Made by a program: the position numbers and the translations under genes | In this document: in pieces, positions 7,397 to 45,786 of the stretch | How positions within the stretch are numbered: position 1 is the first letter of the stretch | Layout of the letters: each line of letters opens with the position of its first letter | Notes under the pieces: model-generated | The model's database searches: none | The model's input: the letters and a program-made list of their open reading frames with translations, nothing else | Told to the model about the DNA's origin: nothing | Assembly (NCBI GenBank): GCA_025351485.1 | Contig: JANXVU010000088.1 | Location: 1-59,999 of the forward strand | Reading direction: 5' to 3' | DNA: 59,999 bases | From: Candidatus Eiseniibacteriota bacterium | GTDB lineage: Bacteria; Eisenbacteria; RBG-16-71-46; JACRLI01

Positions 7397-7516
7397 CAAG
7401 ACGGTGACTCCTCGGCCCGGCCGGTCCGCCGGGCGCAGCTTGGAGACCTGAAGGAAACGGGGAAACAACGGGAAGGTGCCGCGGGCCGTGCCCGGAGGCC
7501 GGCCCTGCCGCAGTTT

Positions 7517-7690
7517 CTAGCCTTGGAGCTTTTCGGCCTCGTCGATCAGCATGACCGGGATGTCGTCCTCGATCCGGTAGCGCAACTTGCACTTGGGGCA
7601 GGTCAGCCTGGCCGCCTCCCGGTCGTAGATCAGATCGCCCTTGCAGGCGGGGCATACAAGGATTTGGAGCAGGTCTTCACTCAGAGCCAT
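7517..7690 (-). CDS. Trm112/YcaR-like zinc-ribbon protein
   Basis: A 57-residue ORF. It begins MALSEDLLQILVCPACKGDL and has a second pair CPKCK followed by LRYRIEDDIPVMLIDEAEKL. Two CxxC knuckles and the ending DIPVMLxxEA are typical of the Trm112/YcaR family, small partners that bind and activate methyltransferases in archaea and eukaryotes; the role of bacterial members is poorly defined. GGGAGA lies five bases before the ATG. It sits between accA and the PorU-like gene on the same strand. Length matches the family (about 60 residues). Confidence 0.85.
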   Translation of the reverse strand: MALSEDLLQILVCPACKGDLIYDREAARLTCPKCKLRYRIEDDIPVMLIDEAEKLQG

Positions 7691-7741
7691 GGGATCTCCC
7701 GGGACAAGGTCGATGAACCTACATCTATTACTGACAGCCTA

Positions 7742-8731
7742 TCACCGGGGTTCCCGGGGGGTCAAATCCGGGTCGGTGTCGAACACTCCCAATTTCAGGA
7801 ATCGCTCGCGGCGGCGGCGGAGCCGGTCCTCGGGATCCATGGCCTTCAGCCGCGCCAGGTGCCGGAGGACCACTTCCCGCACGGTCCTGCGGGCCGCCTC
7901 GGGGTCCCGGTGCGCCCCGCCCTCGGGTTCCGGGATGATCTCTTCCACCACCCCCAGCTGGATGAGGTCGCTGGAGGTGAATTTCAGGGCCTCGGCCGCC
8001 TGGGGAGCCTTGCTGGAATCCGACCAGAGAATCGAGGCGCAGCCCTCCGGGGTGATGACCGAGTAAAACGCGTGCTCCAGGATCAGCACCACGTCCGCCA
8101 CGGCGATCCCCAGCGCCCCGCCGCTCCCGCCTTCCCCGGTGATCACGGCCACGAACGGGGAGTGCAGCGAGAGCATGGTCTTGAGATTCCGGGCGATGGC
8201 CTCGCTGATGCCACGCTCCTCGGCGCCAATTCCCGGGTACGCCCCCTGGGTGTCCACGAAGGCAACGGCCGGCACTCCAAACTTTCCGGCCATGTGAAAC
8301 AGCCGGGCCGCCTTGCGATACCCTTCCGGGTGCGCGTAGCCGAAATTGCGCCGCACATTTTCCTTTACGTCGGAGCCACCCTTCTGGTGACCCATCCAGA
8401 CCAGCGGGGCTCCGGCGCTGAGCCCGAGGCCGGCAACCAAGGCCGGATCATCCCTGAAGTTCCGGTCCCCGGCGAGCTCCATGCTCTCCTCGCACAGGCT
8501 GGCAACGTACTCGAGCGTGTTGGGTCGGCCGGGGTGCCGGGCCAGCTGGACCCGCTGCCAGGGCGTCAGCCTGGAAAAGATCTCATGGCGCATCCGCGCT
8601 GCCTTGGTTTCCAGGCGGCGGAGCTCCTCCTGAATCTCCAGATTCTCCCCTTCGGCGAACCCGCGCAAGTCGCCGATCTGCCGTTCCAGTTCCAACAACG
8701 GTCTTTCAAATTCCAGGACAGGCTGGGCCAT
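7742..8731 (-). CDS. accA: Acetyl-CoA carboxylase carboxyltransferase subunit alpha
   Basis: A 329-residue protein, close to the ~320 usual for AccA. Family features in order: N-terminal helical LEFERPLLELERQIGDL; RPNTLEYV; FRDDPALVAG; GHQKGGSDVKENVRRNFGYA; HPEGYRKAARLFHMA; FVDTQGAYPGIGAEERG; VITGEGGSGGALGIAVADVV; YSVITPEGCASILW. With AccD it transfers carboxyl from carboxybiotin to acetyl-CoA, the first committed step of fatty acid synthesis; accD is not in the window. It starts 17 bases after the dnaE stop, and dnaE-accA adjacency is also found in Proteobacteria, so the pair is probably co-transcribed. No clear ribosome site is seen. Confidence 0.96.
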   Translation of the reverse strand: MAQPVLEFERPLLELERQIGDLRGFAEGENLEIQEELRRLETKAARMRHEIFSRLTPWQRVQLARHPGRPNTLEYVASLCEESMELAGDRNFRDDPALVAGLGLSAGAPLVWMGHQKGGSDVKENVRRNFGYAHPEGYRKAARLFHMAGKFGVPAVAFVDTQGAYPGIGAEERGISEAIARNLKTMLSLHSPFVAVITGEGGSGGALGIAVADVVLILEHAFYSVITPEGCASILWSDSSKAPQAAEALKFTSSDLIQLGVVEEIIPEPEGGAHRDPEAARRTVREVVLRHLARLKAMDPEDRLRRRRERFLKLGVFDTDPDLTPREPR

Positions 8732-22992: not shown

Positions 22993-23508
22993 CTAGGCAC
23001 TCCCCTGCACGGTGGCGAGGTCGCACTCCATGAACGCCACGATCGGCTTGAGCTCCTCGGGGAAATCGTCCGGCGTAGGGATTCTCTTGAAACCGGCCGC
23101 CTCGTAAAGCTGGTGAGCTTTCTCCATCGAGATATGGCTGTCCAGCACCATGCGCCGATACCCGCAAGTGCGGGCCTCGTCCATCAGCGCGGTCAGCAGC
23201 TTCCACCCGATCTTGAGGCCCCGGAGGCCCGGGCGCACGTACAGCCGCTTGAGCTCGCAGGTCCCGACGTCCACGGGTTTCATGCACACGCAGCCCGCGG
23301 GCTCGCCGTCCACCGTGGCCAGCATCATCCGGCCGCGGGGCGGCGCGTAGAGTCCGGGAAGGGAATCCAATTCCTCCTCGAAGCCGGAAAAGGTCGGCGC
23401 CGTACGCACTGCAATTCCGCTGCTCTCCAACCAGGCCATGTAGTCTCGGATCATCTCTCGGACGATTTCGATGTCCTCACGGGATCTGGCCTGTTCGATC
23501 TTCGTCAT
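22993..23508 (-). CDS. GNAT family N-acetyltransferase
   Basis: A 171-residue protein with a GGAGGAGGG ribosome site six bases before the ATG. The GNAT fold is readable: beta strands around MMLATVDGEPAGCVCMKPV, then CELKRLYVRPGLRGLKIGWKL, which holds the acetyl-CoA loop (RPGLRGLKIG, the R/QxxGxG/A region), and the helix-strand MDEARTCGYRRMVLDSHISM. The C-terminal HQLYEAAGFKRIP is the typical last helix-strand. The acceptor is unknown; the family modifies amino acids, peptides or antibiotics. The downstream tRNA-Leu may be co-transcribed. Confidence 0.88.
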   Translation of the reverse strand: MTKIEQARSREDIEIVREMIRDYMAWLESSGIAVRTAPTFSGFEEELDSLPGLYAPPRGRMMLATVDGEPAGCVCMKPVDVGTCELKRLYVRPGLRGLKIGWKLLTALMDEARTCGYRRMVLDSHISMEKAHQLYEAAGFKRIPTPDDFPEELKPIVAFMECDLATVQGSA

Positions 23509-29714: not shown

Positions 29715-31052
29715 CTAAGGAGTGAACACGTTTTCGAGCTTTCTGTCGAGTGCCTCCCGAACCGAGTGCTCCCACGCGGCCATTTCCGCGCATTCCGACC
29801 GGGCCTGTTCCAGCTCGGAACGCGATTCCGCCAGGACGTGTTCCGGGGCGCCGCGCGAGGTCCCTGCGGACGGCAGGTCCCCGGCCACGTCGCGATAGGC
29901 CTCTCGGAACGGGACTCCTTCGAGGGCCCGCTCGGAGGCTTCCCGGGCGGCGTCCAGGTCGCCGGTCATGGCGGCCCGGATTCGGTCCATCTGCAGTTCC
30001 AGGCGCGATGGCAGTAGCGCGGCCACGCCCAGGATCTCCGAGATCTCCGCGATCCCCCGCAGCACCGGCCCCTTGAGCAGTTGCGAATCGCGGTGGTAAT
30101 TGGAAGGCAGCTTGGCGGAGACCCACTCGTGCTCGTCGCGCACCGCGCGCAGCCGCGCGCTGCGGGCCCGCAGGAGCTCGACCACGTCCGGGTTCTGCTT
30201 CTGGGGCATGATCGAAGATCCGGTCCGGAAGCTCTCGTCCAGTCGCAGGTAGCCGTACTCACGGGTCAGAAACAGCGACAGATCGCACGCGAACTTTTCT
30301 ATCACCGAAGCGGCGACGCAGATCTCCGAAAGCAGCCTGCCCTCCAGGCGCGAGCGGCTGTGGATCACGTCGATCACCGAACGCTGCGCGGCGCGGAAGC
30401 CCAGCGATTCGGCGACCGCCTCCCGGTCCACCGGGACCGGCGAGCCGAAACCCGCGGCGGACCCCAGGGGCGAAACGTTCAACTGGCTGTAAATAAAGCG
30501 GGTTGCACGCATGGATTCTAGCGTTGCTTCAATGAAGGCATGGGCCCACATCCCCCAGGTGCAGGGCATTCCGGGCTGCAGGTGGGTCTGGCCGGCCAGA
30601 GGCGCGGAGGCGCAGCAGTCGATGAACTCGAACATGCTGGCGGCAAAGCGCTCCAGGTCCGCGTGGAGCCCCAGCGCGGCCGAGCGCTGGTGGAGCCGCA
30701 GGGCCAGGATCACCTGGTCGTTGCGCGAGCGCCCCAGGTGGATCTTGCCTCCCAGAGGCCCCAGCCGCTGAGTCAAGGCGGCTTCGATCGCCGTGTGGCA
30801 GTCCTCATCTCCATCGGCCACGGTGAACCGGCCGGCGGCGCACTCGGCGGCCAGGGCGCCCAGCGCCTCCAGGAGCCGACGCGTCTCGTCCGCGGAAAGC
30901 ACGCCGATCCCCCCGAGCATCCGGGCGTGGGCGGCCGAGCCACGCAGGTCCCATGGGAGCAGCGTCCGGTCCAGGTGGGCGTCCTCCCCCACGGTGAAGG
31001 CCTTGATGCGCGGGTCCAGCGGGACGCCCTTGTGCCACAAGTTCACCGACAT
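29715..31052 (-). CDS. argH: Argininosuccinate lyase
   Basis: A 445-residue protein. ATG at 31052 overlaps the end of the upstream deacylase gene by 10 bases. The superfamily signature is GSSIMPQKQNPDVVELLRAR, with catalytic Ser in the GSSxM loop, plus the family regions HLGRSRNDQVILALRLHQRS and AGQTHLQPGMPCTWGMWAHA. It splits argininosuccinate into arginine and fumarate, the last pathway step, and is the last arg gene of the operon. The C-terminal portion past residue 380 is somewhat short and Glu-rich compared with E. coli ArgH (457). Confidence 0.95.
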   Translation of the reverse strand: MSVNLWHKGVPLDPRIKAFTVGEDAHLDRTLLPWDLRGSAAHARMLGGIGVLSADETRRLLEALGALAAECAAGRFTVADGDEDCHTAIEAALTQRLGPLGGKIHLGRSRNDQVILALRLHQRSAALGLHADLERFAASMFEFIDCCASAPLAGQTHLQPGMPCTWGMWAHAFIEATLESMRATRFIYSQLNVSPLGSAAGFGSPVPVDREAVAESLGFRAAQRSVIDVIHSRSRLEGRLLSEICVAASVIEKFACDLSLFLTREYGYLRLDESFRTGSSIMPQKQNPDVVELLRARSARLRAVRDEHEWVSAKLPSNYHRDSQLLKGPVLRGIAEISEILGVAALLPSRLELQMDRIRAAMTGDLDAAREASERALEGVPFREAYRDVAGDLPSAGTSRGAPEHVLAESRSELEQARSECAEMAAWEHSVREALDRKLENVFTP

Positions 31053-32125
31053 GAAGCTGCCCCTTCCCGCGCCAGCGCGAAGTAGCTGCGGGCCAGGTCG
31101 GTGTAGACCCGGACCCCCTGATCCAGTTCCGATTCGTCCAGGTACTCGTCGGCGCGGTGAGAGCGGGCGGTGTCTCCCGGGCCGATCTTGACCGTGGGCA
31201 CGTGGGAAAGCCCCACCCAGTCGCTGGTGGTGCGCGAACCTTCCGGCGGAGCGCCGCTGGCCAGGACGGCCGCCCGCGCGATCGGCTGGGCGGCGTCCGT
31301 TTCCACCGCCATCAGGCGCGAGCTGTGGATGACGAGTTCGCACTCGGACAGGCCCTGCAGCCGGGCGTGGATTTCAGGGTGGCTGGTGCCCGGATTGGTG
31401 CGCACGTCCACCCAGAACTCGCACTCATCCGGCACGGCGTTCCGGGCGTGCCCGCCTTCGATCATGGTGACCTGCACGCTGGGCGGCCCGAGAAGCGGGT
31501 GCGCCGGGCCGGGCACCGCTTCGGCCAGGGCGGTGATCGCGCGGGCCGCGGAGTGAATCGCGTTGCGGGCGCCGCCGGTTTCCCCGTGCGCCGCGTGGCC
31601 CGCCACGCCGTGGGCCACGCCCCTCAGGATGAGCAGGCCCTTTTGCGCCAGCACCGCGCGGCATCGCGTGGGCTCTCCCACGATGGCCGCGTCCGGGGCG
31701 GAAAAGAGAGGCAGCACACTTAGGATTCCCGCCCCGGTGGTCTCCTCTTCGGTGGTCAGGGCCACCCGCAGCGTCCCGCCCAGCGGGGACTCGCGGTCCA
31801 GGTCACGCAACCGCGCGGCCGCCGAAACCAGCGCCACCACGCATCCCCCGGCGTCGTTGGCCCCGAGGCCGTAGAGCCGGCCGTTCTCGAGCACGCCGCC
31901 CAGCGGGTCCTGCGTCCAGCTCCCGCAGGCGGGCACGGTGTCCAAGTGTGAGTTGAAGAGCAGCGTGGGCCCGGTCCCCTGGAAAGCGTCGAAGTACAGG
32001 TTGTGCACCGAGCGCTGGACGTCAAACCCAAGGGCCGCCAGCGCGGCGGAGACGTGGTCCGCCACGGCTCCCTCCGAGCCCGAGACGCTCGGGATGCGCA
32101 CCATCTCCTGGAGCAGCCGGATCAC
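31043..32125 (-). CDS. argE: M20 family deacylase, probable N-acyl-citrulline/ornithine deacylase
   Basis: A 360-residue M20 peptidase-family enzyme with a GTG start overlapping the argB stop (GTGA). Metal-site motifs: LLFNSHLDTVP, YGLGANDAGGCVVA (Asp bridging), TTEEETTGAGI (general base Glu and ligand Glu), VGEPT and, near the end, GPGDTARSHRADEYLD with the last His. The dimerisation lid includes GVAGHAAHGE. Since the operon's transcarbamylase is of the N-acylornithine type, this enzyme would remove the acyl group from N-acylcitrulline, giving citrulline for ArgG. ArgE, DapE and LysK cannot be separated by sequence reading alone; context favours arginine. Confidence 0.85.
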   Translation of the reverse strand: MIRLLQEMVRIPSVSGSEGAVADHVSAALAALGFDVQRSVHNLYFDAFQGTGPTLLFNSHLDTVPACGSWTQDPLGGVLENGRLYGLGANDAGGCVVALVSAAARLRDLDRESPLGGTLRVALTTEEETTGAGILSVLPLFSAPDAAIVGEPTRCRAVLAQKGLLILRGVAHGVAGHAAHGETGGARNAIHSAARAITALAEAVPGPAHPLLGPPSVQVTMIEGGHARNAVPDECEFWVDVRTNPGTSHPEIHARLQGLSECELVIHSSRLMAVETDAAQPIARAAVLASGAPPEGSRTTSDWVGLSHVPTVKIGPGDTARSHRADEYLDESELDQGVRVYTDLARSYFALAREGAASCR

Positions 32126-33045
32126 TCCGTCTCCACCGTCTCCGGGGAACCCGATTCGTGGAGCGACTTCACCACCAGGGTCCCGGAGCCCTCGTTGGTG
32201 AAGATCTCGCGCAGGAGCGCGTGCGGGACCAGCCCCGCCACCAGGTGGGCGCGCTCCACGCCGGACTCCAGCGCCAGGCGGCAGGCCCCCAGCTTGGGCA
32301 GCATGCCGCCCCGGACCACTCCGTTGCCCATCAGTTCATCGCATTCCTCGACGTCCAGCAGGCTGATCAGCGTGGAAGGATTGGTCACGTCGCGCAACAG
32401 CCCCGGCACCTCGGTCACGAAGATGACCTTGGCCGCTCCGAGCGCTCCGGCCAGGCGGGCCGCCAGGGTGTCGGCATTGATGTTGTAGATCCGGCCCTTG
32501 TCGTCGCCGGCGAGCGGGGAAACCACCGGCACGTGGCCCGCCTTGAGCAGGTCGTGGAGCACCTCGGGCCGCACGGAAGCGATGTCGGCGACGTGCCCGT
32601 AGTCGACCACCCGGGTGTCTCCCCCGGGATCGGTGACCGGGACCGGCGGGCGCCTGACCGCCGCGGTGAGATGGGCGTCCACGCCGGAGAGTCCCACGGC
32701 GGACATGCCCTGGCGGCGCAGCGCGGCCAGGAGCTGGGTGCGCGCCTGCGAAAACGCCATGGTCACCACTTCGAGCGTGGCATCGTCGGTAATGCGCCGG
32801 CCGGCCACCTGCTTCTGGGGCACTCCCAGCCGCTCGGCCAGCTTGTTGGCCTGCGACCCGCCGCCGTGCACCAGCACCAGGCTGATGCCCAGCGAATCCA
32901 GCAGCGCCAGCTGGGTCGCGAGGCTCTCCAGCGCCTGCGGCTCTTCCACCAGCCGGCCCGAGATCTTCACCACGAACATGCGACCCCGGAAGTGTTTTAC
33001 AAAGGGCGCCGCCGCTTCCAGCGAAAGCCCGCTCTCATGAACCAT
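32122..33045 (-). CDS. argB: N-acetyl(acyl)glutamate kinase
   Basis: A 307-residue amino-acid-kinase-fold protein. ATG at 33045 has AAGGAGA seven bases upstream and overlaps the end of argF' by 11 bases; an open extension to 33096 lies inside argF'. Motifs: FVVKISGRLVEEPQALESLA for the phosphate loop (canonical ArgB has KYGG, so KISG is a variant), LVLVHGGGSQANKLAERLG, SAVGLSGVDAHLTAAVR and YNINADTLAARLAGALGA. It phosphorylates the gamma-carboxyl of N-acylglutamate. The sequence leans toward the LysZ/ArgB-like subgroup, but it sits in a complete arginine operon. Confidence 0.92.
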   Translation of the reverse strand: MVHESGLSLEAAAPFVKHFRGRMFVVKISGRLVEEPQALESLATQLALLDSLGISLVLVHGGGSQANKLAERLGVPQKQVAGRRITDDATLEVVTMAFSQARTQLLAALRRQGMSAVGLSGVDAHLTAAVRRPPVPVTDPGGDTRVVDYGHVADIASVRPEVLHDLLKAGHVPVVSPLAGDDKGRIYNINADTLAARLAGALGAAKVIFVTEVPGLLRDVTNPSTLISLLDVEECDELMGNGVVRGGMLPKLGACRLALESGVERAHLVAGLVPHALLREIFTNEGSGTLVVKSLHESGSPETVETE

Positions 33046-34141
33046 GGATCGTCTCCTTGATGGACTCGTTGAATCCCGCTGCGGCGGCACTGGCAAGAAG
33101 GCCGGAATCGCTCCAGCCCGGGCGCAGCAACGTCAGCAACAGGGACATGAACACCCACATGCGGTTCTCGGCCTGGTCCACGACGCGCGAGCGCGCGCTG
33201 TCCAGGACCTCGGAGTCCACCACCACGTCGCGGCGAACGGGCAGGCAATGCAGCACCGGGGCCGACGTCGGGCGAAGCCTGGATTCGCTCACCCGCCAGG
33301 CGGCGAGCCTGGAGAAGTCCTCGCCCTGCGCCGCCTCCTGCGCGTAAAGATCCGCCCTTCCCCAACTCTTCACATACACGACTTCCGCGCCCTCCAGGAA
33401 GGAAGGATCGTTGGACATCTCGAAAGACGTGCCCGCGGAGGCACACTGCTCGCGCGCCGCAGCCACGTAACGCGGATGCAGGTCGTAGCCCTCCGGGTGG
33501 AGCACCCGCACGTGCATGCCGGCCCAGGCGGCCCCCAGCATGGCCGAATGCGGCACCGCCATCGGCGTGGCCTTGGCCTGCGGCGCCCAGGTCAGGCAAA
33601 AGGTTCGACGGGCCGTGGATCCGCCCAGGACTTCCCGGGCAGTCAGCATGTCGGCTAGCGCCTGGCACGGATGCTCCATGGCCGATTCCAGGTTGATGAC
33701 CGGCACGCTGGAGTGCGCGGCGAACGCGTTCAGCATGGGGTCCAGCGCGTCCTCTTCCAGGTCCTTCATGCCGGCAAAGCAGCGGATGCCCAGCGCTTCC
33801 GCATACCGCCCCAGCACCGGTACGGCTTCCCTCACGTGCTCGGAGGCGGCGCCGTTCATGGGCACGCCGTCCCGCCATTCCAGGTTCCAGGTGCCCTGGC
33901 CCACGTGCAGCGGCACGGCCGAGCCACCCAGGCGCTGCATGGCCGCCTGGGAGGAAAAAAGCGTCCGGAGCGACGAGTTGAAGAACACCAGCCCCAACAC
34001 CCGGTCTTCCAGGGCGCGCGCGTAGGCCGGGCGGTCCCAGCCGGCGGCGCGGTGCCGCTCGCGCTTGAGCCGGGCGGTCAGGTCGAGCAGCGTTTCGATT
34101 TCGCGGGGCTCCCAGTCCAGGTGGCTCAGGAAGTGCTTCAA
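33035..34141 (-). CDS. argF': N-acylornithine transcarbamylase (AOTC/SOTC type)
   Basis: A 368-residue protein. TTG at 34141 overlaps the argD stop (TTGA); AAGGGGGG lies seven bases before. The N-terminus MKHFLSHLDW matches the N-acetylornithine enzyme of Xanthomonas, and LHVGQGTWNLEWRDGVPMNG plus LTWAPQAKATPMAVPHSAML match the N-succinylornithine enzyme of Bacteroides. Ordinary OTCase motifs fit less well. The residue that sets acyl specificity (Glu92 in Xanthomonas, Pro90 in Bacteroides) is Ser100 here, in GAASEHV. The carbamoyl-phosphate loop is SLRTL, with the second Arg of SxRTR replaced by Leu. HCLPVRRDV near the end is the conserved HCLP block. It makes N-acylcitrulline. Confidence 0.9.
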   Translation of the reverse strand: MKHFLSHLDWEPREIETLLDLTARLKRERHRAAGWDRPAYARALEDRVLGLVFFNSSLRTLFSSQAAMQRLGGSAVPLHVGQGTWNLEWRDGVPMNGAASEHVREAVPVLGRYAEALGIRCFAGMKDLEEDALDPMLNAFAAHSSVPVINLESAMEHPCQALADMLTAREVLGGSTARRTFCLTWAPQAKATPMAVPHSAMLGAAWAGMHVRVLHPEGYDLHPRYVAAAREQCASAGTSFEMSNDPSFLEGAEVVYVKSWGRADLYAQEAAQGEDFSRLAAWRVSESRLRPTSAPVLHCLPVRRDVVVDSEVLDSARSRVVDQAENRMWVFMSLLLTLLRPGWSDSGLLASAAAAGFNESIKETIHGS

Positions 34142-35298
34142 GAAAGGCCCCCCTTCCAGTCGAGCAGCGCGGTGCGTAGCTGGTCCACGTGCTTCTCCTC
34201 GATGATGAGCGGCGGCAGCAGGCGCAGCACGCGGGGATCCCCGCTCGTGCCGGTCAGGATTCCCCGCTCCAGCAGGAACTTGTGAACCTGCTTTGCCGGC
34301 ACGGTGGTCTCGAGCCCCATCAGCCAACCGTCGCCGCGGACTCCGCTCACCGGGCCCACCGCGAGCGACTTCCGGGCGTAGTCCGAGACCCGGCGCACCT
34401 GCGCTTCGATCCCGCGGTCACGGATAGCGGTCACCATAGCCAGCACCGCGGCCGAAGCCAGCGGCCCGCCGCCGAACGTGGAGCCCAGGTCGCCTTCCTT
34501 TACCTGCGAGGCCAGCTGCTCCGAAAAGATCACCGCGCCCACCGGGACTCCGCCGCCGAGCGCCTTGGCCGAGGTGATCAGGTCGGGCGTGACGCCAAAC
34601 CGGGTGGCGGCAAAGGGAGCGCCCAGGCGCGCCATGCCGGTCTGCACTTCGTCGAACACCAGCACGATGCCGAGCTCCTGGGTGCGCCTGCGCAACGCCT
34701 CCAGGTAGGGCTTTTCCAGCGTGACCACGCCGGCCATGCTCTGGATCGGCTCGACGATCACGGCGGCCATGGTGTCGTCCAGGCGGGCCAGATCAGCAGG
34801 TTGGTTCGGGGCCAGCCGCTCGGTCGGTACCAGCAGCGATTCCATGCCGGCGCAGTAGTGCTCGCCGTCGGTGGCTGAAAGAGAGAGCAGCGTTCGTCCG
34901 TGGAACGCGCCGCTCAGCGCCGCGATCCGCCGGCGGCCGGTGGTCTGCATGGCCACCTTCAGCGCGGCCTCGTTGGCCTCGGTTCCCGAGTTGCAGAAGA
35001 ACACCTGCGCAAACGGTGGTCCGGCAAAATCCACCAGCGCCCGGGCGGCCTGGTCGCGCACCGGAATCCGGGCCACGTTGGAGTAGAACAGGAACTCCGA
35101 GGCCTGGCCCGAGATCGCCGCCACGATTTCCCGGGGCGAGTGTCCCAGGGCCGCCACCGCGTGGCCGCCGTAAAAGTCCAGGTAGGCGCGGCCCTCGCGG
35201 TCGCGCACGTATACGCCTTCCCCTTCCACCAGTTCGAAGGGATAGGTGGCGTAGGTCGGGATCAGGGCCGAGCGGGTGGACATGTCGGTCGCGGACAT
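34138..35298 (-). CDS. argD: Acetylornithine aminotransferase family protein
   Basis: A 386-residue class III PLP aminotransferase. It starts MSATDMSTRSALIPTYATYP with AAGGA ten bases upstream. Features: FYGGHAVAALGHSPREIVAA, FFCNSGTEANEAALKVAMQT, AFHGRTLLSLSATDGEHY, LVFDEVQTGMARLG and the PLP lysine in LITSAKALGGGVPVGAVIFS. It converts N-acylglutamate semialdehyde and glutamate to N-acylornithine and 2-oxoglutarate. It lies 55 bases downstream of argC and overlaps argF'. Confidence 0.93.
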   Translation of the reverse strand: MSATDMSTRSALIPTYATYPFELVEGEGVYVRDREGRAYLDFYGGHAVAALGHSPREIVAAISGQASEFLFYSNVARIPVRDQAARALVDFAGPPFAQVFFCNSGTEANEAALKVAMQTTGRRRIAALSGAFHGRTLLSLSATDGEHYCAGMESLLVPTERLAPNQPADLARLDDTMAAVIVEPIQSMAGVVTLEKPYLEALRRRTQELGIVLVFDEVQTGMARLGAPFAATRFGVTPDLITSAKALGGGVPVGAVIFSEQLASQVKEGDLGSTFGGGPLASAAVLAMVTAIRDRGIEAQVRRVSDYARKSLAVGPVSGVRGDGWLMGLETTVPAKQVHKFLLERGILTGTSGDPRVLRLLPPLIIEEKHVDQLRTALLDWKGGLS

Positions 35299-35353: not shown

Positions 35354-36445
35354 TCAGATGGGCCGGGGCGCGGCGTGCCACAGTCCGGTGGTCTCGGCGA
35401 GCCCGAGGCTGAGATTCATGTTCTGCACGGCCTGGCCGGCCATGCCCTTGCCCAGGTTATCCAGGGCCGCGCACATCACCACGCGGTCGGTGTGTCGGGA
35501 TATGTGCAGGTCGCAAAAATTCGTGCCGGCCACGTCCAGCACCGTGGGCGAATCTCCCCGCAGCCGGATGAACGGCTCGCCGGAGTAATGCGCCCGCACT
35601 TCCTCGGGCCCGGGAAGTTCGCCGGTGAAGGACTCCCGGGGCGCATGCACGGTGACAAAGATGCCCCGCACCATCGGCGCGCTGTGCGCCGCGAAGCTCA
35701 ACCGCGGCGAGGCGTCGCCGAATTGCTGAAGCACCTCCGGCACGTGCTGGTGGCCCGCCAGCTTGTAGGCCCGGTAACCGGAATGCCGGATCGGGTGATG
35801 AGCCGTCTGGGAGGCGACCGCGCCCGATCCGGACGATCCGGTGGCCCCGTCGGCCGAGACGAACCCGCGCAGGCCGTTGGCCACCAGCGGCGCCAGCGCC
35901 AACTGCAGGGCAGTGGCGAAACAGCCTGGATTGGAGATCAGCCCGGCGCTTCGCAGGGCGCCGCGGCCAAACTCCGGAAGCCCGTAGCAGGCCCGGGCAC
36001 GAAGCCCGGGGAATGCGGGGGTGTCCGGATAGGCGCGCGCGTGCATCGCGGGATCCGAGAGGCGCAGATCGCCGCTGAGATCCACCACGGTGAGCCCCTC
36101 GGGCCAGGACGAATCCGAGGCCGAGCCCTTACGCGCCGGCGAGGAAACGAGCTGGCTCGCCCGCGCCAGCGCCTGTTCCAACGCGACCGCGCTCTGGCCG
36201 TTGGGAAGCGCGGAGAACAGCACTGACCTGCCTTCCGAAACCAGGCCCTCGATGTCCAGCTCCGGCGTGAAGCCCAGATCGCACATGCCCAGGAGGTGCG
36301 GATGCGCTGCCGCCACCGGCTTTCCAGCGTGGTGCCGCGAGACCACCTGGGTCACGCGCACCCCGGGATGCGCCAGGAGCAGGCGCAGGAGTTCCCCACC
36401 GCCGAAACCCGAACCTCCAAGGATCGCGACCGGAACCGTGTTCAA
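35354..36445 (-). CDS. argC: N-acetyl(acyl)-gamma-glutamyl-phosphate reductase
   Basis: A 363-residue protein. TTG at 36445 overlaps the stop of the P-loop gene as TTGA. The NAD(P) loop is VPVAILGGSGFGGGELLRLL. The catalytic Cys is in LISNPGCFATALQLAL, and the C-terminal AGHQHVPEVLQQFG holds the conserved His. It reduces N-acylglutamyl phosphate to the semialdehyde. Residues ~100-125 carry a Ser/Lys-rich loop (SSPARKGSASDSSWPEG) not seen in most ArgC. Confidence 0.94.
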   Translation of the reverse strand: MNTVPVAILGGSGFGGGELLRLLLAHPGVRVTQVVSRHHAGKPVAAAHPHLLGMCDLGFTPELDIEGLVSEGRSVLFSALPNGQSAVALEQALARASQLVSSPARKGSASDSSWPEGLTVVDLSGDLRLSDPAMHARAYPDTPAFPGLRARACYGLPEFGRGALRSAGLISNPGCFATALQLALAPLVANGLRGFVSADGATGSSGSGAVASQTAHHPIRHSGYRAYKLAGHQHVPEVLQQFGDASPRLSFAAHSAPMVRGIFVTVHAPRESFTGELPGPEEVRAHYSGEPFIRLRGDSPTVLDVAGTNFCDLHISRHTDRVVMCAALDNLGKGMAGQAVQNMNLSLGLAETTGLWHAAPRPI

Positions 36446-37506
36446 GCCCGCGCCCCGCGAGATTCCTCGAGCTTTTCCATCAGCAGCTCCGCCAGCTCCT
36501 TGCCGTGAGTGCGCGCATTGAAGGCGGGCAGGCCGAGCTGCGAGCGCACGTACCGCACGCCCACCTCGTTGTCCGTCGCGGGGCCTGTGACCACGTCGGT
36601 ATTCCACCCGAACGTATCGCGCAGGATCTGCACGCCGCCCCATGCGCCCACCGGATCGTTGGCGCACAGCACCATGGCCGTGGCGCACGAGCGCAGCTCC
36701 GGATCCGCAAGGATCGACTGGACGCCGTACTCGCCCAGGATTCCGTCCCCGAGTTCGGCCAGGATCACGTCGGGATTGCCCCGCATGAGCTCGGCGAACA
36801 CCGCCCGCGTGGCCGCGATGGCCGTGTCGGCCCCGGTGGTGACCACTCCGGTCTCGTTGAAGCTGGTGGCCCGCTCGGCTCCGTAGTCCTTCATGGACAG
36901 CGTGTCCCGGAGCAGCGAGATCCCGGTCAGCTTGGCCCCGGCCACGCGCATTCCCCGGTGCGAGAGGTGCCGCACCAGCTGGCAGGCGGCCAGCGTCTTG
37001 CCGGCGTTCATGCAGGTTCCCGCGATATAGATCACCGGCGCCATTCCGGGCAGGCTGGGCGCTGCCGGCAGCGCGTTCATGGTGATATGGGCCTGCACGC
37101 CCTGGCGGCTCTGGAAGTTGGGATAGGCCAGCACCGCGCCCAGCACTTCGGCCGAAAAAGGCGCGCCCACTTCCGGGTTCTGCGACAGGCACGTGCCCAG
37201 CACTCCGCCCAGGTTCAGCACGTGGATCTTGTCGCCCGCCTTGAGCGTTTCCGGGACCACCCCGAAATAGCCCTGCAGCGCGTGCCGGTGGCCCAGCGCG
37301 CCGGCGATCACATCCCCTCCGTGCAGCATGCTCATGCGCCCGTGCACGTCCTCGAGCTGGTTGTAGACGCTCTTCTCTCCCAGGATGCGAACGGCGATCA
37401 CCGCGCCGGCGCGGCAGTCGATGTCCGTGGTGACGGTCACGTCGGGTTTGAGGCGGATGTTGCGCGTGACCGAGGCGATCTTGTCGAGCCGAATCCGAAA
37501 TTCCAT
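36442..37506 (-). CDS. P-loop NTPase of unknown function inside the arginine operon
   Basis: A 354-residue protein, start ATG two bases after the argG stop, stop overlapping argC (TTGA). Residues 1-140 form a beta-rich domain (VTVTTDIDCRAGAVIAVRIL, GGDVIAGALGHRHALQGYFG, AGDKIHVLNLGGVLGTC). Residues 158-354 are a P-loop domain: Walker A GTCMNAGKT at 163-171, a second conserved block AGAKLTGISLLRDTLSMKDY, a Walker B-like DVILAELGDGIL (246-257) and LCANDPVGAWGGV. The layout GTxMxxGK followed by TG recalls DUF1611/MobB-type proteins, whose member DgcN is a glutamate N-acetyltransferase. I do not recognise the family. Because no N-acylglutamate synthase is in the operon, that role is a hypothesis; a regulator or carrier is also possible. 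Confidence 0.75.
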   Translation of the reverse strand: MEFRIRLDKIASVTRNIRLKPDVTVTTDIDCRAGAVIAVRILGEKSVYNQLEDVHGRMSMLHGGDVIAGALGHRHALQGYFGVVPETLKAGDKIHVLNLGGVLGTCLSQNPEVGAPFSAEVLGAVLAYPNFQSRQGVQAHITMNALPAAPSLPGMAPVIYIAGTCMNAGKTLAACQLVRHLSHRGMRVAGAKLTGISLLRDTLSMKDYGAERATSFNETGVVTTGADTAIAATRAVFAELMRGNPDVILAELGDGILGEYGVQSILADPELRSCATAMVLCANDPVGAWGGVQILRDTFGWNTDVVTGPATDNEVGVRYVRSQLGLPAFNARTHGKELAELLMEKLEESRGARA

Positions 37507-37508
37507 GA

Positions 37509-38753
37509 CTATTCCCTTCCTGCCGGTGCCAGCTCCGGCCGGCCGCTCTCCGCCAGCCGGCGGTCCCGCCGCGCGGCCAGGGCATCTTGCAAACCATAGA
37601 GGCGGCAGAATCCCTGCGCATCGCGGCCGTCCCACAGGTGGTTTTCTTCGCCATACAGGGCCACGTCCGAGAGCATCAGCGAAGCCGGGCTCTCTACCCC
37701 TTCCACCGAGGCCTGCCCCTGGTAGAGCCGGACCCGGGCCGTCCCGGTGACGTGCGCCTGGCTGGATTCCAGGAACGCCTCCAGGTCGCGCATGAGCGGG
37801 TCGAAGTATCGGGCTTCGTGCAGCATGGATCCGTAGAGGTTGCCGAGCTGCTCCTTCCAAAACATCTGCTGGCGCGAAAGGACCAGCTTTTCCAGCTCGC
37901 GGTGCGCCGTGATCAGCGTGATCGCGGCCGGAGCCTCGAATCCCACGCGACCCTTGATGCCCAGGATGGTGTCCCCGAGATGCACGCCCCGGCCCACCCC
38001 GTGGGCGGCGGCGCGGCGCTCCACTTCCAGGATCAGGGCCACCGGATCCATGGCCTGTCCGTCCACGGCCACGGGCACGCCCTTCTCGAATCGAATCCCG
38101 AACACCTCGGGCCTGGACGGCCACATGGCGGGCGGCTGGGTGTAGGGGAACGCGTCGTCAGGAACCGTTTCGGTGCTCTGGTGCGTCGGCCCGCCACCCA
38201 GGGTCGCGCCCCACAGCCCGCGGTTGATGGAAAACTTGCGGGCCACTTCCGGCACCGGCAGCCCGGCATCCGCCAGACGGCTCGCGGCGCGTCCCCGCTC
38301 CAGGCGGTTTTCGCGTATGGGCGCGATCACCGGAAGACCCGGCGCGAGAACCCGGAACGCGAGGTCGAAGCGCACCTGGTCGTTGCCCGCTCCCGTGGAC
38401 CCGTGCGCGATCGCGTTCATGCCGCCCGCCACCGCCAGCTCGGCCACCGTCTCGGCCTGGGCCACGCGCTCGGCCGCCACGCACAGTGGATAGGTCTGGC
38501 CGCGCAGCACGTTTCCGAAGAGCAGGTAGCGCAGGTAATGCTGGAACAGGCGCGGCCGGGCGTCCACCGTGGTGTGGTGCGTGGCGCCCAGCACGTAGGC
38601 CCGGCGCTCGATGTCGGCCAGTTCCTCGGCCGAAAAGCCGCCGGTGTCCACGGTGATGGTGTGCACCTCGTACCCGTAGTCCTCGCGGAGCGCCACGCAG
38701 CAGTAGCTCGTGTCCAGACCGCCCGAGAACGCCAGCGCCACTTTCGTCGTCAT
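37509..38753 (-). CDS. argG: Argininosuccinate synthase
   Basis: A 414-residue protein whose ATG overlaps the argR stop (ATGA). The N-type ATP pyrophosphatase loop is KVALAFSGGLDTSYCCVALR. Further family regions: YGYEVHTITVDTGGFSAEEL, AIAHGSTGAGNDQVRFDLAF, IAPIRENRLERGRAASRL and FSINRGLWGATLGG. It joins citrulline and aspartate with ATP cleavage to AMP. It is the second gene of the operon. Confidence 0.96.
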   Translation of the reverse strand: MTTKVALAFSGGLDTSYCCVALREDYGYEVHTITVDTGGFSAEELADIERRAYVLGATHHTTVDARPRLFQHYLRYLLFGNVLRGQTYPLCVAAERVAQAETVAELAVAGGMNAIAHGSTGAGNDQVRFDLAFRVLAPGLPVIAPIRENRLERGRAASRLADAGLPVPEVARKFSINRGLWGATLGGGPTHQSTETVPDDAFPYTQPPAMWPSRPEVFGIRFEKGVPVAVDGQAMDPVALILEVERRAAAHGVGRGVHLGDTILGIKGRVGFEAPAAITLITAHRELEKLVLSRQQMFWKEQLGNLYGSMLHEARYFDPLMRDLEAFLESSQAHVTGTARVRLYQGQASVEGVESPASLMLSDVALYGEENHLWDGRDAQGFCRLYGLQDALAARRDRRLAESGRPELAPAGRE

Positions 38754-39196
38754 CCGTTGCCGCCTTTCGTGAATCCCTTGAGCCAGTGCAGAAGCCGGCC
38801 CTGGTCGGCCCGGCCCTTCACCGCGATGAAAATCGTGTCGTCCCCGGCCACGCTGCCCATCAGTTCGGCGCGGCGGGCGGTGTCCAGAAAGTTCGCCGCC
38901 ATGGGCGCGCCCCCCGGGGCCGTGCGGACCACGATCAGGTTGGCCCCCACCGGAACCGCGCTGGTCAGGATGCGCGCCGCGGGCGGCGTGTCCATGCGCT
39001 GCGGGCGAAGTTCCCCCGGCAGCCGGTACTTGCCGCCCAGTTTGACCAGCCCGAGCTCCCGGGTGTCCCGGCTGATGCTGGCCTGGGTCACCTCGAACCC
39101 CTGGGCCACCAGCGCCCGCACCAGTTCGTTCTGGTTGCGGACCTCGTCCTTGCGGACGAGCTTGAGAATGGCACTCTGACGCTTACCCTTTTCCAA
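38750..39196 (-). CDS. argR: Arginine repressor
   Basis: About 148 residues. TTG at 39196 is preferred: GGAGGT lies six bases upstream, within the first codons of the alternative ATG frame at 39214. The N-terminal winged helix reads KGKRQSAILKLVRKDEVRNQ and QGFEVTQASISRDTRELGLV (recognition helix SISRDTRELG). The C-terminal oligomerisation and arginine-binding domain reads ANLIVVRTAPGGAPMAANFL with LMGSVAGDDTIFIAVKG, including the GDD-type arginine contact. It represses arginine synthesis as a hexamer. It is first in the operon, behind a candidate ARG box, so autoregulation is likely. Confidence 0.95.
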   Translation of the reverse strand: MEKGKRQSAILKLVRKDEVRNQNELVRALVAQGFEVTQASISRDTRELGLVKLGGKYRLPGELRPQRMDTPPAARILTSAVPVGANLIVVRTAPGGAPMAANFLDTARRAELMGSVAGDDTIFIAVKGRADQGRLLHWLKGFTKGGNG

Positions 39197-39238
39197 GGCG
39201 GGACCTCCATGCATCGAATCCGACTAATACATATCTTG

Positions 39239-42557: not shown

Positions 42558-43058
42558 CTAGATGGCCTTGAATTGCTCGAAGGGGGACCGGCAGGCCTTG
42601 CAGTAGTGCACGGCGCGGCACAGCGTGGGTCCGAAGGAGCTCTCCAGCATCGTGTCGCTCGAATCGCAGTAGGGGCACCGCGCGTGGGGCTGGAGCACGT
42701 GGAGCTCCAGGGAGTCCCCCCTCGGCGGAGGCGCGAAGCCCGAACAGCGCAGCTTTTCGCGCCCCTGCTCGGTAATTCGGGACGTGGTCCACGGTTCGTC
42801 CGTCACCAGTTTCACATCGATCGTTCCCAGTTCCGCGAGCTGCTCGCGGATCATCTGCTGCATGGCTTCGATGGCCGGGCAACCGAGGAACGTGGGCATG
42901 AGCTCCACCAGGATGGCGGCGGGCCCCTGCTTCACGCTTCGGATCAGCCCCAGTTCCAGCACTGAAACGGTCGGGATTTCGGGGTCTTTCACTTCCTGGA
43001 GCAGCGTCCAGGCGCGGTCCTCGCGCAGCGCGTGGGGCCGGGCGACGGGCGCTACCAT
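42558..43058 (-). CDS. paaD: 1,2-phenylacetyl-CoA epoxidase subunit PaaD
   Basis: A 166-residue protein overlapping the end of paaC by 7 bases. The N-terminal DUF59/MIP18-type domain (WTLLQEVKDPEIPTVSVLEL, then LVELMPTFLGCPAIEAM) is followed by a zinc-binding tail with RCPYCDSSDT and YCKACRSPFEQF. PaaD is needed to load or mature the metal centre of the epoxidase, by analogy with Fe-S assembly proteins. It is last in the visible paaABCD set; no paaE reductase follows. Confidence 0.93.
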   Translation of the reverse strand: MVAPVARPHALREDRAWTLLQEVKDPEIPTVSVLELGLIRSVKQGPAAILVELMPTFLGCPAIEAMQQMIREQLAELGTIDVKLVTDEPWTTSRITEQGREKLRCSGFAPPPRGDSLELHVLQPHARCPYCDSSDTMLESSFGPTLCRAVHYCKACRSPFEQFKAI

Positions 43059-43822
43059 ACGGCCTCGGGGTCAACCCCGTAGACCAGGGTCATCTCATTC
43101 CACAGCTTCACGAAGTCCTCGCTGTGGCGGCCTTCCCGGCCGCCGTAGCCGCTGTGGTCGCTGAACGCGTTGAGTCCCAGGTTCGGGCCGTGCAGGCCGT
43201 GGCGGGCCAGCACCGGCTCCACCACCTGCCACCACCTGGGGAGGAGCGCGGAGAAGGGCTCGGGCAGAACGCCGGCCTTCACCAGTTCGGCCTCCCCCTC
43301 CACCGGCTCGAAGAATCCCGGCAGATCGGGCCACAACTGGAGCAGCGCGGCTTCCAGCCGGCGGTGGGACTCGTCCGTGCCGTGGGCCAGCTTGCCGATC
43401 CAGGACTCGCCGTGCATGCGGTGGTACTTTTCTTCGCGGATCACCTTAGCCACGCCCAGCGCCAGCGGCTTGTGGGTCGAGCGGGTGAGCATTTCCAGGC
43501 GCACCCCATCGGCCGCGTCGTAAAGAAACTGGCGGGCCATGGAGTAGGCCCAGTCGCCGCGCGGCCGTTCCACCAGCCGGCAATGGTGAAATCCGGACGG
43601 CTCGCGGCCCAGGGCGATCGAGTCGGGGCTCTTGTCGAGGATCCCGGAGACCATTTCGTAGAACATTCGCGCGTGCCCGATCTCGTCCTGGGCCATGGAC
43701 GAAAGCGCCACGTCCTCCTCCAGCAGCGGAGCGATGCCGGTCCATTCGGAATCGCGGTAGCCCAGCACCAGTTCGTCGTCCGCGAGCGCCATCAGGAGCG
43801 GAACCAGCTTCTCGTCGATCAC
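43052..43822 (-). CDS. paaC: 1,2-phenylacetyl-CoA epoxidase subunit PaaC
   Basis: A 256-residue ferritin-like protein. GTG at 43822 overlaps the paaB stop (GTGA). Motifs: LMALADDELVLGYRDSEW, LSSMAQDEIGHARMFYEM (the E..DEIGHA helix), ARQFLYDAADGVRLEML and REEKYHRMHGESWIGKL. PaaC is the structural partner of PaaA in the (PaaA-PaaC)2 core; it keeps ferritin-like helices although the iron site is in PaaA. It ends VYGVDPEAVW. Confidence 0.94.
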   Translation of the reverse strand: MIDEKLVPLLMALADDELVLGYRDSEWTGIAPLLEEDVALSSMAQDEIGHARMFYEMVSGILDKSPDSIALGREPSGFHHCRLVERPRGDWAYSMARQFLYDAADGVRLEMLTRSTHKPLALGVAKVIREEKYHRMHGESWIGKLAHGTDESHRRLEAALLQLWPDLPGFFEPVEGEAELVKAGVLPEPFSALLPRWWQVVEPVLARHGLHGPNLGLNAFSDHSGYGGREGRHSEDFVKLWNEMTLVYGVDPEAVW

Positions 43823-44136
43823 TTGGCTTCCCCTCTTTCTGCGGCCACCCTGGCCCGCAGCGCTTTGCGCTTTTCCACGGTGATGCGGTAGCCGGCGCCC
43901 TCGCGATAAGTCCGGTCCAACTGCGAGGCCAGCAGGTCCGCGTCCTTCACTTCCATGATCGCCGCGCGACGCACCACCCACAGCCGGACCGACTCGTGTC
44001 GGCGCCCGTAGAGGTCGCGCGCGTACTGAAGGGCCAGGTCGTCATCGGGGGCCAGCAGATTGCCGGCGTGGCGAAAGGGATCGCCCTGCTCCTCCTGGCG
44101 GAACACTTCGTACACGTCCCCGACCGTGGTGTCCAT
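43819..44136 (-). CDS. paaB: 1,2-phenylacetyl-CoA epoxidase subunit PaaB
   Basis: A 105-residue protein, the usual PaaB length. It begins MDTTVGDVYEVFRQEEQGDP followed by FRHAGNLLAPDDDLALQYAR and RRHESVRLWVVRRAAIMEVK, the conserved small-subunit core. PaaB bridges PaaA-PaaC heterodimers. It starts two bases after the paaA stop and overlaps paaC. Confidence 0.94.
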   Translation of the reverse strand: MDTTVGDVYEVFRQEEQGDPFRHAGNLLAPDDDLALQYARDLYGRRHESVRLWVVRRAAIMEVKDADLLASQLDRTYREGAGYRITVEKRKALRARVAAERGEAK

Positions 44137-44138
44137 GG

Positions 44139-45056
44139 TCAGGCCGCCACGGAGGCGGAGCCCAGCACGGCGTCGCGCACCCAGCGGGTCTCCTCGTAGT
44201 TGAAGCGCCGGAAGCCCAGCCGCTCCTGGCTCGCGGGGCCGGCGCCGCGCACCACCGTCTTGAGCTCTTCCCAGTCCGGCTCAGTGTAGAGCCAGGAGCC
44301 GGTCGCCTGGTCGTGCCGCATGTTGGGATCGGGCACTTCAAGGCCGATCTCGCGGATCTTGGGAATGTAGGTGGCCAGGAACTCCTGCCGCAGGTCGTAG
44401 TTGCACTTGGTCTTGATCTTCCAGGCCAGGTCGCCGTCTCTTTCGGCCGGGGTGTTCGGCCCGTGCATGTGCATGAGCGGCCCCCACCAGCGGTTCAGGG
44501 CTTCCTGGCACATCTCCTTCTGCCTCTCCGTTCCGGCCATCAAGGTGAGCACCGCGTCCTCGCCCTGCTTCAGGTGGAAGGCCTCCTCCCAGCAAATGCG
44601 GGTCATGGTGCGGGCGTAGGGCGCGTAGGAACTGGAGCGCAACGCCGTCTGGCTCACGATCGCGGCGGCGTCCACCAGCCAGCCGATGATGGCCACGTCG
44701 GCCCACGTGCGCGTCGGGTAATGAAAGACGTTGTGGAACTTGGTGCGACCGGCGATGAGGTCCTCCAGCATGGCCTCGCGCGGCTTGCCCAGGTCCTCGG
44801 CCACGCGGTAGAGCAACTGGCCGTGCCCCACTTCGTCCTGGATCTTGGCGGTCAGCGCCAGCTTGCGGCGAAGGCTGGGGGCGCGCAGGATCCAGTCGCG
44901 CTCGGGGAGCGCTCCCATGAGTTCGGAATTGCCGTGCATTTCGATGAACCGGATGGCGCGGGTGCGGTAGTCCTCGGGCATCCAATCGCCCACTTCCACC
45001 TTGCCTCCGGCGTCGATGCGGGCCTTGAACTCGTCGATCTGGGCCTGGTCTTCCAT
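44139..45056 (-). CDS. paaA: 1,2-phenylacetyl-CoA epoxidase catalytic subunit PaaA
   Basis: A 305-residue protein; ATG at 45056 has GGGAGG four bases upstream. The di-iron ligands of this bacterial multicomponent oxygenase are readable: KIQDEVGHGQLLYRVAEDLG (Glu and His of the first EVGH helix) and ICWEEAFHLKQGEDAVLTLM (Glu, Glu, His). WMPEDYRTRAIRFIEMHGNS and WWGPLMHMHGPNTPAERDGD are conserved surface regions. The enzyme epoxidises the ring of phenylacetyl-CoA with O2. It is first of four paa genes, 52 bases after the TetR gene. Confidence 0.95.
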   Translation of the reverse strand: MEDQAQIDEFKARIDAGGKVEVGDWMPEDYRTRAIRFIEMHGNSELMGALPERDWILRAPSLRRKLALTAKIQDEVGHGQLLYRVAEDLGKPREAMLEDLIAGRTKFHNVFHYPTRTWADVAIIGWLVDAAAIVSQTALRSSSYAPYARTMTRICWEEAFHLKQGEDAVLTLMAGTERQKEMCQEALNRWWGPLMHMHGPNTPAERDGDLAWKIKTKCNYDLRQEFLATYIPKIREIGLEVPDPNMRHDQATGSWLYTEPDWEELKTVVRGAGPASQERLGFRRFNYEETRWVRDAVLGSASVAA

Positions 45057-45108
45057 GGTTCCTCCCTGCTCGGGCGCCTCCCGGGCGCCCATCGGTTCGA
45101 TCGAGCGG

Positions 45109-45711
45109 CTAGCGTGAGCGCTCGACGCCTCTCAAGATCATGTCGGCCATGCGGTCGGCCACTTCGTCGGGGCTGAGCGGCCCTTCGGTCCGGAACCACT
45201 GGTGCGCCCAGTTGAGCGCGCCCAGCAGGAACAGGCTCGCGAACTTGGGCTCGGTCGGCGAAAACTCGCCGCTCGCCACGCCGTCCTCGATCACGTGCCG
45301 GAAGTGGGCCTCGTACTGGTCGCGCTTCGCCTTCAGTGCGGCCCGGCGTTCCGTACCAAGCAGCTTCCACTCGTTCAGGTAGCACGCGGCGGCCGCAAGG
45401 TCGCTGGCCACCAGGTTCACGTGGGCCCGCACCAACCGGCGCAGCCGGTCCGAAGCCGTGTTGGGACCGGCCACGGCACGCTCGGCCGCCCCCAGGAACT
45501 GGCCCGCCGCGCGGTCCACGATCTCCCAGAGGAGATCCTCCTTGCCCCCCATGTGCGAGTACAGGCTGCCCCCCTGCAGGTCCAGGGCCGAGGCGATGTC
45601 CCGGACACTGGTGGCAGCATAGCCCCGATCCGCGAACAGCCTCGCGGCCGCTCGCAGAATCTGCTCCTTACGGGTTTCGGGCGCGTGCAATTCGGCCAAA
45701 CCAGCCTCCAT
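45109..45711 (-). CDS. TetR family regulator of the paa genes (PaaR-like)
   Basis: About 200 residues. The HTH domain is ETRKEQILRAAARLFADRGY, AATSVRDIASALDLQGGSLY and SHMGGKEDLLWEI. The C-terminal domain (LVRAHVNLVASDLAAAACYL, FLLGALNWAHQWFRTEGPLS) is of the TetR_C group common beside acyl-CoA degradation genes. Start: ATG 45711 is given; a TTG at 45699 is better spaced from GGAGG and may be the real start, whereas the ATGs further up lie inside the promoter. It is likely released by phenylacetyl-CoA and represses itself and paaABCD. Promoter and operator are listed separately. Confidence 0.85.
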   Translation of the reverse strand: MEAGLAELHAPETRKEQILRAAARLFADRGYAATSVRDIASALDLQGGSLYSHMGGKEDLLWEIVDRAAGQFLGAAERAVAGPNTASDRLRRLVRAHVNLVASDLAAAACYLNEWKLLGTERRAALKAKRDQYEAHFRHVIEDGVASGEFSPTEPKFASLFLLGALNWAHQWFRTEGPLSPDEVADRMADMILRGVERSR

Positions 45712-45739
45712 GGGTCGATTCTGGAAGTGAGCTCGCGAA

Positions 45740-45753
45740 CTAGCGTTTGTTAG
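45740..45753. promoter_or_regulatory. Candidate TetR (PaaR-type) operator
   Basis: CTAGCGTTTGTTAG is a near-palindrome placed just downstream of the -10 of the tetR promoter, where a bound repressor would block initiation. It agrees at 8 of 10 fixed positions with CNAACGNNCGTTNG, the site I recall for Thermus PaaR. Confidence 0.5.
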
Positions 45754-45757
45754 CTTC

Positions 45758-45786
45758 ATTATCGGACAAACCGGTAGAAAAGACAA
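45758..45786 (-). promoter_or_regulatory. Promoter of tetR-paaABCD, TTGTCT-N17-GATAAT
   Basis: On the minus strand TTGTCT (45786-45781), a 17-base spacer and GATAAT (45763-45758), a near-consensus sigma-70 type promoter. It gives an untranslated leader of about 40 bases containing the candidate operator. Confidence 0.65.

Follow-up and report, generated by a model that had tools for sequence, protein, structure and literature searches.

A P-loop protein family embedded in arginine operons is a candidate non-GNAT N-acylglutamate synthase

Gene content and organization of the arginine operon

The window analyzed here, i.e. the whole 59,999-nucleotide stretch from a Candidatus Eiseniibacteriota genome, carries on its minus strand an operon of the order argR-argG-X-argC-argD-argF'-argB-argE-argH, as assigned with Pfam and NCBIfam models. 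The first gene, argR (38750..39214), codes for the arginine repressor and is followed by argG (37509..38753; argininosuccinate synthase), X (36442..37506), argC (35354..36445; an N-acylglutamyl-phosphate reductase with a TTG start) and argD (34138..35298; a member of the N-acylornithine aminotransferase family). Downstream of these lie argF' (33035..34150, start approximate), an acylornithine carbamoyltransferase recognized by NCBIfam whose alignment displays the diagnostic residues of the succinylornithine type, argB (32122..33000, start approximate; an N-acylglutamate kinase free of any fused GNAT domain), an argE-like gene for an M20 deacylase (31043..32125), which matched the ArgE/DapE-family models below their cut-off, and argH (29715..31085, start approximate; argininosuccinate lyase). 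Thus, all arginine pathway steps other than that proposed for X are assigned within the operon, and the initial description of a cluster holding the argB to argH steps together with argR was confirmed for each gene by these profile searches.

The remaining gene, X, is the 354-codon open reading frame with the Walker A motif GTCMNAGKT that the initial annotation had placed on the minus strand at 36442-37506. Its product combines a beta-rich N-terminal domain (approximately residues 1-145; 37072..37506) with a SIMIBI-type P-loop domain (approximately residues 155-354), in which the GTCMNAGKT motif occupies residues 163-171 (36994..37020). Reading of the sequence verified both proposed junctions: the argG stop codon TAG is separated by 2 bases from the ATG of X, and the TGA stop of X lies inside a TTGA that is shared with the TTG start of argC. 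A scan of the window for ARG boxes found none. Elsewhere on the minus strand, past a divergent peptidase gene, open reading frames at 43052-45092 resemble by eye a phenylacetate-degradation (paa) operon, with a TetR-like frame close by at 45109-45786.

Domain architecture and conserved residues of X

Searches of X against Pfam and NCBIfam recovered no family match at an E-value of 0.001, no NCBIfam match to bioD models and no GNAT domain in either collection. Sub-threshold similarity was seen to DUF1611 (PF07755; 16.1 bits, E = 0.0078, against a gathering score of 25), limited to the Walker A region, and to AAA_26 (15.5 bits against a cut-off of 27), limited to the P-loop. An AlphaFold2 model of X built from 24 homologs has a pLDDT of 91.8, and the C-terminal domain of this predicted structure, on which the fold class rests, falls among the SIMIBI P-loop proteins, with matches to dethiobiotin synthetases, SRP GTPases, HypB, MeaB-like proteins and DgcN (7xrj). 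The N-terminal domain modeled by itself has a pLDDT of 90.7 and matches neither a PDB structure at E <= 0.001 nor a Pfam family; the earlier view of it as beta-rich and unlike DUF1611 is hence borne out by the model.

Comparison of 84 orthologs revealed twelve invariant residues, namely R57, R74, K170, T171, K192, D201, D207, E251, D254, Y260, D284 and D312. Among these R57, R74, K170, K192, D201, D207 and E251 are kept also in distant homologs, one of which has a serine in place of T171. The best matches of X in PDB by sequence profile are dethiobiotin synthetases and MobB, and K192 of X aligns with the lysine of the Lys-Pro motif of BioD. X shares with the BioD/AAA_26 proteins the GTxxxxGKT P-loop, a subsequent lysine and an acidic EGxG-type motif, but differs from them in its additional N-terminal domain, and the similarity is marginal.

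The initial annotation had drawn an analogy to DgcN, a DUF1611 protein that, going by the title of PDB entry 7xrj, is a D-glutamate N-acetyltransferase. The analogy holds at the level of the broad fold class of the P-loop domain and of a probable N-acylation of glutamate. However, membership of X in the DUF1611/DgcN family was ruled out by the Pfam score and by two profile-profile comparisons with hhalign, which yielded a probability of 4.8% over 35 columns and, with a broader profile, of 2.5% over 109 columns, the DUF1611 side of both comprising only 3 sequences. Structurally, too, X resembles DgcN no better than it does many other SIMIBI P-loop proteins. The N-terminal domains of the two are unrelated, and the P-loop of DgcN lacks the threonine and lysine kept by X: the BioD-like GKT of X is GKM or GKK in DgcN-like proteins. 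In the genome of the window there is also a canonical DUF1611 gene with, next after it, a DgcA-like gene of the enolase superfamily (L045; G000:C25, approximately 7170-7763), a pair that likely constitutes a D-glutamate route separate from X.

Linkage to arginine genes and mutual exclusion with ArgJ

A genome scan recovered 29 homologs of X from other genomes, at 46-60% identity, in Myxococcus, Planctomycetota, Holophagaceae, Verrucomicrobiota, Elusimicrobia and gammaproteobacterial metagenome-assembled genomes. All 29 are located within or next to an arg cluster, and in most of these loci the cluster is tight, X following argG and preceding argC, with gaps too small for an extra gene. In a further 55 loci from Myxococcota and Planctomycetota, argG adjoins X in 54, the sole exception being a contig end, and argC is on the other side of X in 51. 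The association with argG and argC that had been anticipated in genomes devoid of argA and argJ is thus found widely, and as dozens of unrelated genomes show it, chance can be dismissed as its cause.

The genome to which the window belongs (3.44 Mb in 186 contigs, 98.6% complete) encodes no ArgJ, and no ArgA over the cut-off; its sole match to TIGR01890 is ArgB itself, over positions 5-281 of 429. A fusion of ArgB to a GNAT domain was considered as a source of the synthase and ruled out, as the ArgB matches end at the kinase part. There are 17 GNAT-domain matches in this genome, in about 16 proteins, one of them inside the window (23089-23367) with weak resemblance to RimI. A search of NCBIfam with ten of these approximately 16 proteins brought none above the cut-off for a glutamate synthase, the best score among the ten being 33 bits as against the 180 of PRK07922. 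The absence of argA, argJ and a GNAT-type synthase, first noted for the operon, therefore extends to the whole genome for ArgJ and for ArgA over the cut-off, and to the ten scanned proteins for GNAT-type synthases.

The pattern extends to the other genomes with X. ArgJ was found in none of 30 X genomes, whereas the same search detected it in 10 of 14 reference genomes used as a control, and ArgA over the cut-off was likewise found in none of the 30. PF04768, the vertebrate-type NAGS, had no match in the 30 X genomes, nor did it have any in the control. Among 116 Myxococcota genomes 46 have X, 41 have ArgJ, none has both and 29 have neither (Fisher p ~1e-12, a value that ignores shared ancestry). 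Among 148 Planctomycetota genomes the corresponding numbers are 44 with X, 68 with full-length ArgJ, none with both and 36 with neither (Fisher p ~8e-16, again ignoring shared ancestry); one Planctomycetota X genome has a partial ArgJ match of 33 bits. The exclusion is hence repeated in two phyla, while the genomes with neither gene (29/116 and 36/148) show that absence of ArgJ alone does not imply X. Relatives of the window's genome from the same order mostly have ArgJ and no X, and their ArgG proteins are only 34-38% identical to that of the window, from which it appears that the X operon in this phylum was probably acquired as a unit.

These observations point to X as the enzyme of the first committed step of arginine synthesis, i.e. 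a non-GNAT N-acylglutamate synthase, a reading to which, as far as the step itself is concerned, we assign a probability of roughly 70%. It draws on sequence-derived evidence, namely the operon context, the absence of ArgJ and ArgA, the exclusion of ArgJ and the carbamoyltransferase residues discussed below. The core of the original proposal, a new non-GNAT family filling the argA/argJ gap, is strongly backed by the context and the ArgJ exclusion, while its acetyl option and its DgcN-type mechanism call for revision. It could alternatively be envisaged that X is an accessory protein, such as a regulator, a nucleotide-dependent assembly factor or a carrier, and that an unlinked GNAT protein supplies N-acylglutamate. 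Many SIMIBI P-loop proteins indeed have non-enzymatic roles in assembly or sensing, as with the SRP GTPases, HypB and MeaB-like proteins matched by the model, and the genome has 17 GNAT matches. Nevertheless, the operon already contains ArgR, X and ArgJ behave as alternatives in two phyla, none of the ten GNAT proteins scanned scored as a glutamate synthase, and in most X operons the gaps between genes are too short to hold a GNAT gene; we consider such a role for X improbable.

The acyl group transferred by X

The nature of the acyl group may be sought in the carbamoyltransferase of the operon. In the acetylornithine carbamoyltransferase of Xanthomonas campestris Glu92, Asn185 and Lys302 are diagnostic, while succinylornithine carbamoyltransferases have A/S/P/V/Q, P and V/I/E at positions 92, 185 and 302 (PMC4581275). 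Alignment of the window's ArgF' to PDB 3kzc and its mutants places S, P and V at these positions, the pattern published for N-succinylornithine carbamoyltransferase, and succinyl-type residues are present in 26 of the 27 other X loci with argF', the remaining one having T/P/K. A succinylated arginine pathway is known from Bacteroides (PMC7311316), and by these residues the pathway of the X operons is probably succinylated too. X is consequently predicted to make N-succinyl-L-glutamate and is probably best read as an N-succinyl-L-glutamate synthase. Where the initial annotation had left acetyl- and succinyl-CoA open as donors, the diagnostic residues of ArgF' favor the succinyl part and disfavor the acetyl part. 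Transfer of succinyl rather than acetyl would also make the rescue of an argA-deficient E. coli a poor test.

It might be argued that these residues mislead and that X transfers an acetyl group after all. NCBIfam names ArgF' an N-acetylornithine carbamoyltransferase, at 337 bits against a cut-off of 288, and of the residues that anchor the succinyl group in the Bacteroides enzyme (His176, Arg178 and Arg278) the first two are apparently replaced in the window's ArgF' by Gln and Lys, as matched by motif. On the other hand, the three discriminating positions known from the literature all carry succinyl-type residues, and most other X loci have H and K, again matched by motif, at the positions of His176 and Arg178, so that the histidine is conserved there. 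Transfer of acetyl is regarded as improbable.

A possible reaction mechanism and its alternatives

In the activity that we infer, X would acylate the alpha-amino group of L-glutamate and most likely form N-succinyl-L-glutamate. From there citrulline would be reached through the actions of ArgB, ArgC, ArgD, the ArgF' of succinylornithine type and the M20 deacylase ArgE, and arginine in turn through ArgG and ArgH. The chemistry would take place at the P-loop domain, around K170, T171, K192, D201/D207, E251 and D284, and the N-terminal beta-rich domain, with R57, R74, Y48-N49 and the LNLGG motif, would close over the substrate. The assignment of acyl group and donor is weaker than that of the step. 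Two donors can be envisaged, since analogy of the reaction suggests succinyl-CoA, which is somewhat favored, and analogy of the active site suggests succinate plus ATP.

The latter option would make X an ATP-dependent N-acyl-L-glutamate ligase, a sub-case of the synthase reading, in which the P-loop domain phosphorylates a free carboxylate, that of succinate, in a step akin to carbamate phosphorylation by dethiobiotin synthetase, and the amine of glutamate then attacks the acyl phosphate. Its appeal lies in the canonical GKT and in the invariance of K170, T171, K192 and E251 among the orthologs, with K170, K192 and E251 extending to the distant homologs, as well as in the profile matches to dethiobiotin synthetases and MobB and the position of K192 on the Lys-Pro lysine. 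As the BioD-like GKT, K192 and E251 are kept in X and lacking in the DgcN-like proteins with their GKM or GKK, ATP-driven acylation has to be taken as a serious alternative. However, succinyl-CoA is the usual donor in N-succinylation and needs no ATP, DgcN is an example of a P-loop domain at work in an acyl-CoA transferase, and conservation of a P-loop is by itself no proof of NTP use. On balance the ligase mechanism seems to us possible but doubtful.

Distant homologs outside the arginine context

The two-domain layout of X is also seen in distant homologs, some of them annotated as DUF1611, which are encoded by plasmids and by other genomes and of which some have as neighbors ABC transporters with alpha/beta hydrolases, or other genes. 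In three loci (L122, L123 and a Priestia plasmid) the distant homolog adjoins an M20 deacylase gene. This repeated pairing fits a couple of acylating and deacylating enzymes and supports an acylation role without proving it. In the first two, from two Planctomycetota genomes (L122:2766-4984 and L123:2591-4770), the X paralog comes directly after the deacylase gene, overlapping it in L123, and a flavin reductase-like gene precedes the deacylase in both. In the third, on Priestia megaterium plasmid NZ_CP085446.1 (L053:4730-13418), the homolog belongs to what is probably a gene cluster for a phosphonate natural product, with genes also for PEP mutase, the halves of a sulfo/phosphonopyruvate decarboxylase, two ATP-grasp ligases, an ornithine carbamoyltransferase and an M20 amidohydrolase. 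A 407-residue paralog outside any arg context (L050:8577-14626; G048:C207) neighbors an esterase-like gene, an HlyD-type protein and an ATP-grasp/7TM-transglutaminase protein.

A middle class of homologs, with E-values of approximately 1e-32 to 1e-45, was found in five genomes (G201, G244, G285, G314 and G080), four of which also have ArgJ (G080, G244, G285 and G314), as would be expected of paralogs with a different task; these homologs probably function outside arginine synthesis. More speculatively, the entire superfamily might consist of amine acyl ligases that are driven by ATP in the manner of BioD and bear a new N-terminal beta domain. Its arginine branch would make N-succinyl-L-glutamate from succinate and ATP, and the branches that go with M20 deacylases or ABC exporters, including that of the Priestia phosphonate-type cluster, would act in other pathways; we view this generalization as rather unlikely.

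Relationship to known synthases and implications

The step predicted for X is that of ArgJ and ArgA, to which X has no detectable sequence relation and a dissimilar domain content, and with the former of which it is mutually exclusive in the sampled genomes. A further functional parallel is ArgA2 (BT3761 / Cabys_1732), for which the same step is predicted and which is likewise encoded in arg loci: Bacteroidetes and Caldithrix have a GNAT synthase inside the arg locus (PMC5317091, PMC9026213), and in Bacteroidetes ArgA2 accompanies a succinylornithine-type carbamoyltransferase, BT3761 having been proposed to make N-succinylglutamate (PMC7311316, PMC9026213). ArgA2, however, is a GNAT protein, whereas X has an unrelated two-domain architecture devoid of a GNAT domain. 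No description of X was found in the literature searched, a scope that excluded subscription papers and preprints, and X is thus a real and widespread family that is undescribed within that literature.

Arginine synthesis is committed and regulated at the N-acylation of glutamate, a step for which metabolic reconstructions repeatedly lack an enzyme. If the proposed role is correct, X would provide that enzyme in Myxococcus, in many Planctomycetota and in several further phyla, so that apparent arginine auxotrophs would become predicted prototrophs, and its role is amenable to testing in M. xanthus, a bacterium in standard laboratory use. It would also mean that the succinylated arginine route reaches beyond Bacteroidetes, and that a new fold joins the short list of enzymes for the N-acylation of glutamate.
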